A stretch of DNA of 64,000 nucleotides from an uncultured Pelagibacteraceae bacterium (GTDB lineage: Bacteria > Pseudomonadota > Alphaproteobacteria > Pelagibacterales > Pelagibacteraceae). The stretch covers positions 1 through 64,000 of the forward strand of contig CACMDE010000007.1 of NCBI GenBank assembly GCA_902612345.1. Direction: 5' to 3'. Under the pieces are notes generated by a model that made no database searches, was not told the origin of the DNA, and saw nothing but the letters and a program-made list of their open reading frames with translations. This document shows, one piece after another, positions 57,332 through 62,105 of this stretch (position 1 is the first letter of the stretch; each line of letters begins with the position of its first letter). A program made the translations under genes and the position numbers.

Positions 57332-58669
57332 ATGTTTAAAAAAATTTTGATAGCAAACCGTGGTGAGATAGCTGTAAGAATAATTAGAGCTTGCAAAGAA
57401 TGGGGAATTTCTACTGTAGCAATTCACTCTGATGTTGATAGAGAAAGTATGCATGTAAAATTAGCTGATGAGAGCATATGTATTGGTTCTCATCAACCTG
57501 CAAATAGTTATTTAAATATACCAGCTATTTTGTCTGCAATAGAATTAACTAATGCAGAGGCTGTACATCCTGGATATGGATTTCTATCAGAAAATTATAA
57601 TTTTGCGAAAATCTTAGAAGAAAATAATATTAAGTTTATTGGACCTAGTTCTAAACATATAAAGATGATGGGAGATAAAATTCAGGCAAAAAAAATAGCA
57701 ATGGAGTATGGCCTGCCTGTTATTGAAGGATCTGAGGGTGGAGTAAAAGATATTAAAGATGCTAAAGAAATTTTGAAATCAACAGGGCTTCCAGTTTTAA
57801 TAAAAGCTGCAGGAGGAGGAGGTGGTAAAGGAATGAAAATAGTCAAAATTGAAAGCGAATTTGAAAATCTTTTTCTTACAGCAAAATCAGAAGCAAAAAA
57901 ATACTTTGGTAATGATGAAGTATATATAGAAAAATTTTTTGAAAATCCAAGACATATTGAAGTTCAAATTTTAGCAGGGAAAAATAGAGTTATTCATCTG
58001 TATGAGAGAGATTGCTCAGTTCAAAGAAGACATCAAAAACTTATTGAAGAAACACCTAGTCCTGTCCTGAACAAAGAAACTAGAGAGGATTTGTTTAAGA
58101 AAACTTTAAATATGGTTGAAAAAATTGGATACGAGGGAGCTGGCACGGTTGAGTTTATTTACGAAGATGGAAAATTTTATTTCTTGGAAATGAATACAAG
58201 AGTTCAAGTTGAGCATCCTGTAACTGAGGTTGTTACAGGCATTGATATTATTAAAGAACAAATTTGGATAGCTTACTCTGGAGATACTGCTCTTGTGCAA
58301 AAAGATATACAACCGAGAGGTCATGCAATTGAGTGTCGAATAAATGCTGAAGATCCGTCAAAAAATTTTCAACCATCTCCAGGAACTATCGGTATGTGTC
58401 ATCAGCCATCTGGTTTTCGTACAAGGGTTGATGGGGCAATATATCAAGGATATAAAGTTACTCCTTATTATGACAGTATGGTTTGTAAACTAATATGTCA
58501 TGGAAGAAATAGAACAGAGGCAATACAAAGAATGAATAGATCTTTAGATGAGTTTGTTATTGAAGGCATTACAACAACTATTGAACTTCATAAAAAATTA
58601 ATAAATCATAAAAAATTTATCAATTCTGACTTTAATGTTACTTGGTTAGATAACGAAAAAATTATATAA
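57332..58669 (+). CDS. accC: Acetyl-CoA carboxylase biotin carboxylase subunit (AccC)
   Basis: This 445-residue ATP-grasp protein has ILIANRGEIAVRIIRAC, VHPGYGFLSEN, the Gly-rich AAGGGGGKGMK loop, ERDCSVQRRHQK and EMNTRVQVEHPVTE. It carboxylates biotin on AccB with ATP and bicarbonate. Its stop overlaps the convergent DUF2155 gene by 8 nt. Standard length for the family. Confidence 0.96.
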   Translation: MFKKILIANRGEIAVRIIRACKEWGISTVAIHSDVDRESMHVKLADESICIGSHQPANSYLNIPAILSAIELTNAEAVHPGYGFLSENYNFAKILEENNIKFIGPSSKHIKMMGDKIQAKKIAMEYGLPVIEGSEGGVKDIKDAKEILKSTGLPVLIKAAGGGGGKGMKIVKIESEFENLFLTAKSEAKKYFGNDEVYIEKFFENPRHIEVQILAGKNRVIHLYERDCSVQRRHQKLIEETPSPVLNKETREDLFKKTLNMVEKIGYEGAGTVEFIYEDGKFYFLEMNTRVQVEHPVTEVVTGIDIIKEQIWIAYSGDTALVQKDIQPRGHAIECRINAEDPSKNFQPSPGTIGMCHQPSGFRTRVDGAIYQGYKVTPYYDSMVCKLICHGRNRTEAIQRMNRSLDEFVIEGITTTIELHKKLINHKKFINSDFNVTWLDNEKII

Positions 58670-59072
58670 TTTTACAAGAGCTTAGCCACAGATCATATAC
58701 AGGGTGATCAAATGGATTTAATGTAGGGCTTGAAGAAAAAGTCCATCCATTGAATACAAAAACTTTTTCATTATTGGAGATATTTAAATCTTTAACTTGT
58801 ATATATGCAGTTATTTCAGGATCGTCATCAAATTTAGAATTTTCACATTTTAAAACTTTAATAAGTAAATTTTGATATTTTTTCTCCTCTCCAATATTAA
58901 ATTTTAATATTGTATTTTTTGAGCTCACTTTATCTAAAACATTTATTTCGACAACTACATTATATTGATCATTACTTGTGTCTTGTGCATCAGAAATAGA
59001 AATATTTATAAATATTACTAATAAAAGTAAAAGATTAGCTATTCCAAGATTTATATTTTTTTTTATTTGCAT
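58662..59072 (-). CDS. DUF2155-domain periplasmic protein
   Basis: I chose the ATG at 59072 (136 residues); a longer reading frame to 59144 lies inside the NDUFA12 gene and lacks a signal peptide at its start. From this Met there is an Arg-less Lys-rich n-region, a hydrophobic stretch (about 10-26) and probable cleavage near SDA. The DUF2155 domain follows: LDKVSSKNTILKFNIGEE, LLIKVLKCENSKFDDDPEI and VFNGWTFSSSPTLNPFDHP split by strand. Function unknown; next to NDUFA12 in many alphaproteobacteria. Overlaps that gene by 38 nt. Confidence 0.85.
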   Translation of the reverse strand: MQIKKNINLGIANLLLLLVIFINISISDAQDTSNDQYNVVVEINVLDKVSSKNTILKFNIGEEKKYQNLLIKVLKCENSKFDDDPEITAYIQVKDLNISNNEKVFVFNGWTFSSSPTLNPFDHPVYDLWLSSCKII

Positions 59073-59397
59073 TCTGATTTTTTTGTGGATTGTAAGCTTT
59101 TTCTGTTCCAGTTTGATTAGGTAAATGTTTTTTTTGCCAGTCATATTTTTTTAGATCGTGAGTATCCTCTATTTTATTTTTAATAGAATGTATCCACGAA
59201 TACCAATCTACAGGAATTTTAGTAGCTTCAATTTCACCTTTGTAAATAACCCACCTTTTTTTTCTTTTTTTGTTTTCATAATATTTATTTCCGAACTCAT
59301 CTTCTCCAACAAAATTTCCAAAAAAAATTGTTTGCAATCTTGTTCCAAAAGTTTGGCGATTCCACCAAGTCAAAATTTCTTTAATGAATGTCAACAT
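59035..59397 (-). CDS. NDUFA12-family NADH:ubiquinone oxidoreductase accessory protein
   Basis: I chose the ATG at 59397 (120 residues) rather than an upstream TTG. It has LTWWNRQTFGTRLQT, GNFVGEDEFGNKYYE, the RRWVIYKGE-like KKRWVIYKGEIEAT and a VDWYSWIHS segment, all diagnostic of NDUFA12. This is a supernumerary complex I subunit in alphaproteobacteria and mitochondria. The C-terminal tail is Asn/Lys rich. Its 3' end overlaps the DUF2155 gene by 38 nt. Confidence 0.92.
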   Translation of the reverse strand: MLTFIKEILTWWNRQTFGTRLQTIFFGNFVGEDEFGNKYYENKKRKKRWVIYKGEIEATKIPVDWYSWIHSIKNKIEDTHDLKKYDWQKKHLPNQTGTEKAYNPQKNQNANKKKYKSWNS

Positions 59398-59488: not shown

Positions 59489-60313
59489 ATGGCAAAATAT
59501 ATAGTTGAAACTTATTATACATGTAGCTTTAAAGTTAAGCATTATTTAGATGATATAAGTAATAATCAGCTCGATCAACTTGATAAAAGAGATGATGGAG
59601 AATTTGAAATTTTAGATGTTAAATTTGATAAAAGAAATACTAAAAATTTGGAAAAAAATTCAGCAAATATAGAAATAAAATATAAAGAATCACTTGAAAC
59701 ACAAAATAATGAAAATCTTAATAATTCCCCAAAAAATACTTTTTTAAACAACGCATTTAAAGAAAAAGTTACAAAAAGATTTGGTATGCCAGATAGAAGG
59801 AAGGGGTATATACAAAAGGCTACTATTGGCGATCATAAAGTGTATCTTCATACAGGAGAATACGAAGACGGAAAAATTGGAGAAATTTTTATTGATACTT
59901 CAAAAGAAGGAGAATTAGTTAAAGCCTTAATGAATAACTTTGCAATTGCAATATCATTAGGCTTACAATACGGAGTACCACTGGATGAATTCGTAAGTGC
60001 ATTTATAGGTACAAAATTTGAACCTTCAGGTAAAGTTCAAGGGAATGACAGAATACTAAGTGCTTCCTCAATACTTGACTATATTTTTAGAGAATTGGCT
60101 ATTTCATACCTTAATAGAGAGGATCTTGCTCATACACCTTCAATTTTAAATAAAGATTCTAATAGCGAGACAGATCAAAATAACGATGAACAAAACCAAT
60201 TTATAAAATTAGTAAAAGACATAACTAGTAAAGGCTTTGTTAGAAATAATTATAGAGAAAAATTAGTAGATCTTTCAGATATAAAACTTAATTTAAAAGG
60301 TAAGAAAAAATAA
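59489..60313 (+). CDS. Stand-alone protein similar to the C-terminal (TSCPD) region of B12-dependent ribonucleotide reductase
   Basis: This 274-residue protein has an N-terminal charged segment (1-95) with no recognised domain. Residues about 100-215 resemble the extreme C-terminal part of alphaproteobacterial Nrd[57 protein letters not shown] and [13 protein letters not shown]. This region contains the TSCPD domain. No radical, B12 or catalytic-cysteine motif of the reductase is present. It may be a separated NrdJ tail acting in trans or a nucleotide-binding regulator. It diverges from NDUFA12. Confidence 0.82.
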
Positions 60314-60314
60314 A

Positions 60315-62105
60315 TTAGTCAATTTTATTTAAGATTTTTAAATTTAATTCTTTTAACTGTTTTTCATTAATATCTGAAGGGGCATTCATCATTAGATCCT
60401 GAGCATTTTGATTCATTGGAAACATTGTAACCTCTCTTATATTTTTTTCATCGGCCAAAAGCATTACAATTCTATCAATTCCAGGAGCTATACCTCCATG
60501 AGGTGGTGCTCCATAACTTAATGCATTAATCATCCCACTAAATTTTTCATTAACTACATTTTTATCGTATCCAGCAATAGAAAATAACTTATACATTAAT
60601 TCTGGTATATGATTTCTAATTGCACCTGACGACAGCTCAACTCCATTACAAACAATATCATATTGATATGCTTTTAAATCTAAAGGCTTAGATAAATCTA
60701 GATTATTTGGATCTCCTTGGGGCATAGAAAATGGATTGTGACTAAAATTTATTTTTGAAGTCTCTTTATCAAGCTCAAAAATTGGAAAGTCTGTTATCCA
60801 ACAAAAAGCAAAGGCTGCTTTATCAATTATGTTAAGATCCTCACCAATTTTATTTCTAGATTTAGACATAATTTCATAGATATCATTTTCCTTGCTGCAA
60901 GACATAAAAATACTATCACCAATCTCAGCATTAGTAATTTTCATTATCTTTTTTAAAGAATCTGATGAGAAAAATTTACCAATTGGACCTTTTCCAGCTA
61001 ATTGATTTCCATCTTTTTCAATAGAAAGGTATGCTAACCCATTCCACCCTTGCTCTTTCGCCCACTTATCAATATTGTCAAAAAAACTTCTCGGTTTGTT
61101 AATAGTTTTTTTTGTGACTATAGCTTTAATTAACGATCCAGATTTTGATAATCTTTTAAATATTTCAAAAGTTATATCTTCTCTACTAAAAATTTCTGAT
61201 ATATCATGAATTAATAGAGGGTTTCGTAAATCTGGTTTATCTGTCCCGTATTTATTCATAGACTCTTTAAATGGAATTCTTGGAAATTTTTCAAACATCA
61301 TTTTCTTTTTTGAAAAATTTTTAAAAAGACTTACCATCAGCTTTTCTATAACTTCAAAAATATCATCTTGTTCTACAAAAGACATTTCAATATCTAATTG
61401 GTAAAATTCACCTGGGCTTCTGTCAGCTCTTGCATCTTCATCTCTAAAACAAGGTGCAATTTGAAAATATCTGTCAAAACCCGAAACCATAATTAATTGC
61501 TTAAACTGCTGAGGTGCCTGTGGTAAAGCATAAAACTTGCCAGGATTTAGTCTACTGGGCACTAAAAAATCTCTTGCCCCTTCTGGGCTTGATGACGTTA
61601 AAATTGGTGTTTGAAATTCATTAAAACCTAATTTTTCCATTTCTTTTCTTATGAATGAAATAACCTTGGATCTTAGAATAATATTACTATGAATTTTTTT
61701 TCTCCTTAAGTCTAAAAATCTATACTTAAGTCTTATTTCCTCAGCATATTCTTGATCTGAAAAGACTGGCAATGGAAGCTCTTTTGTCTTTCCTAGAATT
61801 TGAATTGCATTAATTTTGATCTCTATTTGTCCTGTGGGAATTTCTTTATTTACTGTTTCAGGCGTTCTTTCTAATACATTTCCTTCAATTTTTATAACAG
61901 TTTCAAGAGGAATTTTTTCTAATTTAGAAAAATTTTTATTACCTTTATCTACAATACATTGTGTAAATCCAAAATTATCTCTTAAATCAATAAATAATAG
62001 ATTGCCATGGTCTCGCTTTTTATGAACCCATCCTGATAGTAAAACATTTTTATTAACATGCTTTTTATTTAATTCATTGCAGTTATGTGTGCGGTATTTA
62101 TTCAA
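60315..62105 (-). CDS. aspS: Aspartyl-tRNA synthetase, probably non-discriminating
   Basis: This 596-residue class IIb synthetase has an N-terminal OB-fold with GWVHKKRDHGNLLFIDLRD, motif 2 in FRDEDARADRSPGEFYQLD, the QAPQQFKQLIMVSGFDRYFQI pocket and motif 3 in GIDRIVMLL. A His follows KKRD in the anticodon-binding domain (H34), as in synthetases that charge both tRNA-Asp and tRNA-Asn; discriminating E. coli enzyme has Leu there. It therefore probably works with a GatCAB amidotransferase. It abuts hda (0 bp). Confidence 0.94.
   Translation of the reverse strand: MNKYRTHNCNELNKKHVNKNVLLSGWVHKKRDHGNLLFIDLRDNFGFTQCIVDKGNKNFSKLEKIPLETVIKIEGNVLERTPETVNKEIPTGQIEIKINAIQILGKTKELPLPVFSDQEYAEEIRLKYRFLDLRRKKIHSNIILRSKVISFIRKEMEKLGFNEFQTPILTSSSPEGARDFLVPSRLNPGKFYALPQAPQQFKQLIMVSGFDRYFQIAPCFRDEDARADRSPGEFYQLDIEMSFVEQDDIFEVIEKLMVSLFKNFSKKKMMFEKFPRIPFKESMNKYGTDKPDLRNPLLIHDISEIFSREDITFEIFKRLSKSGSLIKAIVTKKTINKPRSFFDNIDKWAKEQGWNGLAYLSIEKDGNQLAGKGPIGKFFSSDSLKKIMKITNAEIGDSIFMSCSKENDIYEIMSKSRNKIGEDLNIIDKAAFAFCWITDFPIFELDKETSKINFSHNPFSMPQGDPNNLDLSKPLDLKAYQYDIVCNGVELSSGAIRNHIPELMYKLFSIAGYDKNVVNEKFSGMINALSYGAPPHGGIAPGIDRIVMLLADEKNIREVTMFPMNQNAQDLMMNAPSDINEKQLKELNLKILNKID

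Follow-up and report, generated by a model that had tools for sequence, protein, structure and literature searches.

The locus at 59489-60313 raises the question of why the tail of NrdJ, the B12-dependent class II ribonucleotide reductase (RNR), should be encoded as a protein of its own in a SAR11-type host. The gene is a single open frame of 274 aa on the plus strand of the window, by which we mean the whole stretch of 64,000 nucleotides that was analysed. A preliminary description made from the sequence had read it as a separate NrdJ tail behind a charged N-terminus, possibly acting in trans with a shortened NrdJ or serving as a nucleotide sensor. Here, we describe the protein and its origin, and then weigh what the tail may do in SAR11 and in other Alphaproteobacteria. 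Families are labelled with f codes (f1 is the window's group and f2 its sister family), genomes with G codes, and loci with L codes.

A free tail protein and its parts

The gene, its parts, and its synteny neighbours are as follows.

57332-58669, plus strand: accC, biotin carboxylase, synteny neighbour
58662-59144, minus strand: DUF2155 protein, synteny neighbour
59035-59394, minus strand: NDUFA12-like protein, synteny neighbour
59489-60313, plus strand: complete gene for the nrdJ-derived tail protein, 274 aa (Pfam and NCBIfam matches; position of the full nrdJ of the sister family)
59489-59650, plus strand: N-domain, residues 1-54, orphan, predicted beta hairpin and short helix (conservation, model)
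59651-59776, plus strand: variable linker, residues 55-96 (33% mean identity, low pLDDT)
59777-60145, plus strand: IscU-like (TSCPD) core, residues 97-219 (Pfam, NCBIfam, conservation, model)
60194-60307, plus strand: conserved C-motif, residues 236-273 (conservation; contains S-x-G-[FY]-x-R)
60227-60244, plus strand: S-x-G-[FY]-x-R, residues 247-252, inside the C-motif
60315-62105, minus strand: aspS, aspartyl-tRNA synthetase, synteny neighbour (class II synthetase, OB-fold and GAD domains)

The reading as a separate NrdJ tail was right. The NCBIfam model of alphaproteobacterial NrdJ, NF005736, aligns residues 62-261 of this stand-alone frame to profile positions 934-1132 of 1222 (E 3.4e-67), and the TSCPD profile search that had been proposed placed Pfam TSCPD (PF12637) at residues 109-204 (E 6.7e-13; 49.2 bits, above the gathering cut-off of 22.8). 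TSCPD was the only Pfam domain found on the 274-aa protein, with no PF02867 barrel, and the N-x-C-x-E catalytic motif was not found in its sequence. The protein misses the NF005736 equivalog cut-off (227 versus 1737 bits). Since the aligned span is 934-1132, only the middle of the tail is represented, and the protein lacks the catalytic barrel as well as the final 90 profile positions, which hold the cysteine end. Thus, the claimed likeness to the last section of NrdJ holds for the C-terminal part, but the terminal cysteine domain is missing. The sole cysteine, C12, is a serine in the relative L018; the core (residues 97-219) contains none, and there is neither a zinc finger nor a redox end. 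The 62-261 match is conserved only in part, because it takes in much of a linker (residues 55-96) that evolves fast.

AlphaFold2, run with 61 aligned sequences, modelled the core confidently (all ten-residue blocks in 101-210 at 87 or higher) and the rest poorly (pTM 0.48). A Foldseek search with the tail model gave no match at E 0.001 or better. Residues 104-215 superpose weakly on IscU, SufU, and SufE (Z about 4.3, rmsd 2.9-3.0 over 85-90 residues), and the SAR11 core lacks their cluster-ligand cysteines. Because unrelated folds score equally, no function follows from the IscU resemblance.

Modelled alone, the N-domain forms a beta hairpin and a short helix (pLDDT 89), for which we found no fold match in the PDB. 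Pfam gave no match to the window copy and none better than E 0.05 to the other members. In a sample of 385 genomes from the class, the N-domain is confined to f1, apart from two weak matches (E 0.006 and 0.007) within apparently unrelated ORFs. That it is a leftover of the NrdJ N-terminus was considered and rejected (profile comparison probability 0.2 percent, E 0.37).

Origin at the nrdJ locus and selection in SAR11

In f1, the gene order is accC, DUF2155, NDUFA12, tail gene, and aspS, which was Pfam-checked in the window. At three f2 loci, a nrdJ of 1194-1203 aa with N-x-C-x-E follows accC, DUF2155, and NDUFA12 in the same orientation; aspS lies downstream at two of the three, and L065 ends before it (L063 was Pfam-checked). 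The tail gene is therefore orthologous to the ancestral nrdJ locus, and the presence of a full nrdJ amid identical neighbours in f2 indicates that it is nrdJ reduced in place. The two forms are consistent within their families: 34 of the 37 genomes of the window's genus (f1) gave a match, in frames of 272-299 aa, and 23 of the 24 genomes of sister family f2 gave one, in frames of 1196-1218 aa. The full f2 NrdJ at L063:6778-10362 also shows a weak match to the Pfam TACO1/YebC N-terminal domain at residues 290-363 (E 3.5e-5, under the cut-off).

From these loci, a sequence of events can be proposed. The f1 ancestor would have carried a full class II RNR here; with class I NrdAB as dNTP source, the catalytic part could then have been lost (a net loss of about 860 residues before the tail core) along with the cysteine-rich end. 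The IscU-like core and the S-x-G-[FY]-x-R segment would have been kept, preceded by a new N-domain and a flexible linker.

The RNR content of the host accords with the absence of NrdJ catalysis. The window genome (83% complete) yielded one TSCPD match, one NrdB, and one barrel frame, which is the 651-aa NrdA. Neither a short nor a long NrdJ was found in the near-complete relatives G012 (1,343,202 bp), G267, and G158 (99-100% complete), where all barrel matches fall in one NrdA frame. The suggestion of an in-trans role with a shortened NrdJ is accordingly unsupported: NrdA is the sole barrel frame in all four genomes, and the search for a shortened nrdJ elsewhere in them found none. No full-length nrdJ shares the window genome with the tail gene either; the full gene occupies the same position in f2. 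We found no NrdB in the three f2 genomes tested. Caulobacter vibrioides, which served as a control, gave matches for both TSCPD and class I RNR.

The tail is widespread in SAR11. A profile search with 17 aligned relatives confirmed 593 loci, of which the best 80 are all from SAR11 (Pelagibacteraceae, Pelagibacterales, Ca. Pelagibacter). Order-wide, 366 of 398 genomes gave a match, as did 145 of the 151 that are at least 90% complete, with the match type assigned by E-value (25 f2 matches as NrdJ-type, f1 as tail-type). The other six of the 151 had no match, and the tail-less genomes include G626, a 99%-complete draft. Eleven single-contig f1 genomes carry the tail gene, and none of the 20 listed of the 32 tail-less genomes is a single contig.

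Selection was measured in 78 of the 81 SAR11 sequences with the tail gene, namely those that also carry accC and NDUFA12; the window is one of them. Mean pairwise amino acid identity and median dN/dS are listed below; the medians come only from pairs at dS 0.1-1.2, and most pairs are near saturation.

N-domain: identity 0.883, dN/dS 0.060
Linker: identity 0.333, dN/dS 0.787
Core: identity 0.956, dN/dS 0.017
C-motif: identity 0.910, dN/dS 0.038
Whole tail protein: identity 0.807, dN/dS 0.072
AccC: identity 0.891, dN/dS 0.047
AspS (n=71): identity 0.813, dN/dS 0.073
AroQ (n=72): identity 0.763, dN/dS 0.151
NDUFA12: identity 0.743, dN/dS 0.158
DUF2155 (n=22): identity 0.565, dN/dS 0.355

The core is the slowest-evolving segment measured in the neighbourhood, in a comparison of a segment with whole proteins. 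The S-x-G-[FY]-x-R motif is present in all 81 SAR11 copies. The charged N-terminus reported earlier is genuine and conserved, at 88% mean identity over residues 1-54. The tail gene is neither a chance ORF nor a decaying pseudogene.

Tail cores in other alphaproteobacterial lineages

The tail matched in 248 of the 385 genomes of the class sample, and eight families besides f1 have core-bearing proteins that lack the catalytic motif.

f10: free protein, 278 aa, with a different N-terminus and zinc-finger cysteines kept
f28: core on proteins of 526-533 aa, no catalytic motif
f65: core on proteins of 801 and 926 aa, no catalytic motif
f147: 807 aa, non-catalytic
f152: 912 aa, non-catalytic
f162: 808 aa, non-catalytic
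f174: 1085 aa, non-catalytic
f101: 663 aa, non-catalytic

Together with f1, at least 18 of the 248 genomes are non-catalytic, which is probably a lower bound: the count covers all but about 20 genomes, any untested frame longer than 1,100 aa was counted as intact, and a short frame at the end of a contig was counted as a truncated gene (the ORF of G382 is cut by a contig end). Several of the non-catalytic genes adjoin apparent accC, aat, DUF2155, or NDUFA12 (DUF2155 and NDUFA12 were Pfam-checked in L105). In G068 and G394, all barrel matches lie in the NrdA frame.

On an rpoB tree of 61 genomes built by a quick method (G083 gave no rpoB and G444 a partial one), the non-catalytic label requires six changes, or five without the tail-less rows, and well-supported branches force four. 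The lineages concerned are f1; f10; f28; f152; f162 with f101 and f174; and f65 with f147. The tail-less label changes seven times over eight tail-less genomes, so complete loss of the tail is common too.

Between these proteins, the body has diverged far more than the core: body versus core identity is 41% versus 92% for G338/G416, 29% versus 86% for G338/G243, 36% versus 83% for G368/G444, and 64% versus 83% for G218/G086. The exception is f101, whose core reaches only 43-44%. The core of f28 is 50% identical to that of f2; these two families with a diverged core (43-50% identity to others) have no S-x-G-[FY]-x-R. The motif is kept in G338, G416, G243, G368, G444, and G278, and lost in G160, G218, and G086. 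G338, G416, G243, and G278 retain zinc-type cysteines but no terminal redox pair, and both features are missing from G368 and G444. In all, the terminal redox pair is gone from nine non-catalytic proteins of these other lineages. Catalytic NrdJs share 74 conserved core positions; 58 of these are retained by every one of the seven non-catalytic proteins compared (a comparison that left out f28 and f101), 63 by SAR11, and 52 by both, and 41 residues were invariant in this analysis. Directly next to the dead nrdJ of f28 and f101 lies a 153-aa gene of similar start sequence, which we take to be RidA-like (L109:9064-9525, L110:9625-10086, L112:4733-5194).

Some of these genomes have a second candidate gene. 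The other NrdJ of G338 has its own tail and zinc-finger end. The second NrdJ of G243 (574 aa) has no tail domain, so help in trans may occur there. The second tail match of G278 lies at a contig edge and is a nearly identical duplicate of that genome's dead gene, and in G123 (f65) the sole TSCPD match is in a 756-aa frame resembling a separate NrdJ.

The core is also conserved where NrdJ is catalytic. Of 55 loci, 43 have the core with N-x-C-x-E upstream, eight were missed by the pattern, and four are non-catalytic. Among the 43 catalytic bacterial NrdJs, conservation of the core exceeds that of the barrel (N-x-C-x-E onward) in 903 of 903 pairs (0.831 versus 0.675). All 43 have S-x-G-[FY]-x-R, and 40 have the redox-end pattern; one has a variant, and two fragments show none. 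Eleven alpha-like NrdJs from viral contigs follow the bacterial pattern (55 of 55 pairs), and in 15 other viral-contig NrdJs the gap is small (0.483 versus 0.457), with the core ahead in 66 of 105 pairs. This suggests extra constraint on the core in the alphaproteobacterial NrdJ type, as judged against a control that is small and made up of viral-contig rather than matched bacterial sequences. S-x-G-[FY]-x-R is missing from the catalytic NrdJ of one viral contig (L002).

Viral contigs also hold other arrangements of this domain; phage RNRs are the topic of PMC10547690. In L245:3150-5881 and L247:3177-5879, a free TSCPD gene with a cysteine end lies between DnaB-like helicase and SSB genes, and the RNR active-site motif was not seen in the stretch examined. 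Short free TSCPD proteins of 129-162 aa occur in L258:4501-4890, L262:907-1395, and L293:4468-4947, and no RNR active-site motif was seen close by. In L257:2192-4878, NrdJ is split: the catalytic motif lies in a 729-aa ORF and the tail core in a 163-aa ORF after it.

What the tail may do without its enzyme

Free proteins consisting of the C-terminal cysteine-rich domain (CRD) of NrdJ are already known. An IscU-like domain is described for class II RNR tails in the part of PMC9669993 that we draw on, with which the weak fold resemblance of the SAR11 core agrees, and the relevant passage of PMC4520616 presents NrdJb of Pseudomonas as a free CRD proposed to re-reduce NrdJa. As far as these passages go, NrdJb of P. 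aeruginosa resembles the SAR11 protein: both stand alone, and both are based on the IscU-like (TSCPD) domain of NrdJ. However, NrdJb keeps the zinc-finger end and its cysteines and works with the catalytic NrdJa, whereas the SAR11 protein lacks the zinc finger and any cysteine in its core, has no NrdJa encoded in the genome, and bears an extra N-domain. Compared with the alphaproteobacterial NrdJ CRD, for which a portion of PMC5704485 shows a redox role, the SAR11 tail shares sequence, gene position, and S-x-G-[FY]-x-R, but it has lost the barrel and redox end and is encoded alone. In the open-licence literature, we found no report of a tail kept without the class II enzyme and without cysteines in several lineages.

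Loss of the cysteines excludes the known redox role, and with no NrdJ left, there is no short NrdJ for a free tail to serve, so binding or regulation remains. We consider it probable that nrdJ eroded in place and that the tail core was kept for a separate, RNR-independent docking or regulatory job in Alphaproteobacteria. Such a job would account for the retention of the core and S-x-G-[FY]-x-R, and the tail may bind a conserved partner as a docking or regulatory module; our guess is that the partner is most likely tied to dNTP supply or replication. We infer a second function of the tail module in Alphaproteobacteria more broadly. Only a little less confidently, we favour a bifunctional IscU-like tail that serves the enzyme and also an independent, strongly selected cellular function. 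The independent function would explain why the tail survived repeated enzyme loss, the clearest case being SAR11, where it is a free protein with a new N-domain. On the other side, the high conservation of the core in working NrdJs might stem from its RNR role rather than from a second one, and the tail is dispensable in places, as the eight tail-less genomes and seven changes on the tree show and as the 756-aa frame of G123 also suggests.

The main rival is that the tail is a trans regulator or oligomerisation subunit of NrdAB that reads dATP or dGTP. We regard this as possible though unlikely. NrdB was present in all 17 tail-only or dead-NrdJ genomes tested, compared with 13 of 37 with catalytic NrdJ and six of eight tail-less ones, but class I is needed anyway once NrdJ is dead, and this co-occurrence is therefore expected. 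Neither NrdA nor NrdB of the window genome has an ATP-cone, and the class II CRD drives dATP- or dGTP-induced oligomers according to the part of PMC5704485 that treats them. A tail-less genome from another family (G090; 1,410,127 bp; L227:2917-5667) has an NrdA of another kind, with two ATP-cone stretches, which prompted the idea that the tail might replace an ATP-cone where NrdA lacks one. That idea was rejected: five genomes without the tail also carry NrdA of the cone-less type, and the five tail-bearing genomes scanned alongside are cone-less as well, so the tail is no general ATP-cone substitute. Two further points weigh against a regulator of NrdAB: the strong conservation of the core across catalytic NrdJs, and the absence of NrdB from 24 of the 37 catalytic-NrdJ genomes tested (a set that overlaps only partly with the conservation set). 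In the Zymomonas RNR passage of PMC10746277, nrdA and nrdF are the only genes named.

Far less probable is an NrdJb-like thiol-disulfide CRD acting in trans for a truncated or phage-supplied NrdJ. The Pseudomonas protein is a precedent, within the account of PMC4520616, and outside Alphaproteobacteria TSCPD is commonly found in free frames of about 206-295 aa. However, for the host's own enzymes such a role is already contradicted: there is no NrdJ in the SAR11 genomes checked, and the window genome's NrdA bears its own C-terminal CxxC. The cysteine-free core and missing zinc finger, together with the redox pair lost from the nine proteins elsewhere, speak against it as well. Least credible of all is a harmless, slowly decaying relic without function, since, despite its descent from a lost enzyme and its fast-evolving linkers, it is contradicted by the selection analysis (core dN/dS 0.017, with most pairs near synonymous saturation), by retention in most genomes of a streamlined order, and by parallel retention in other lineages.

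A tail core kept for its own docking or regulatory job thus remains our preferred reading. Whatever its partner, a core gene of SAR11, a dominant ocean group, gains a definite origin. Annotation pipelines might label such proteins as B12-dependent RNR and so overstate the need for B12. Altogether, these lineages amount to a natural experiment that isolates the domain, with the enzyme and the redox cysteines gone and the core under strong selection, and because the core stands isolated in them, its role is directly testable outside RNR catalysis.
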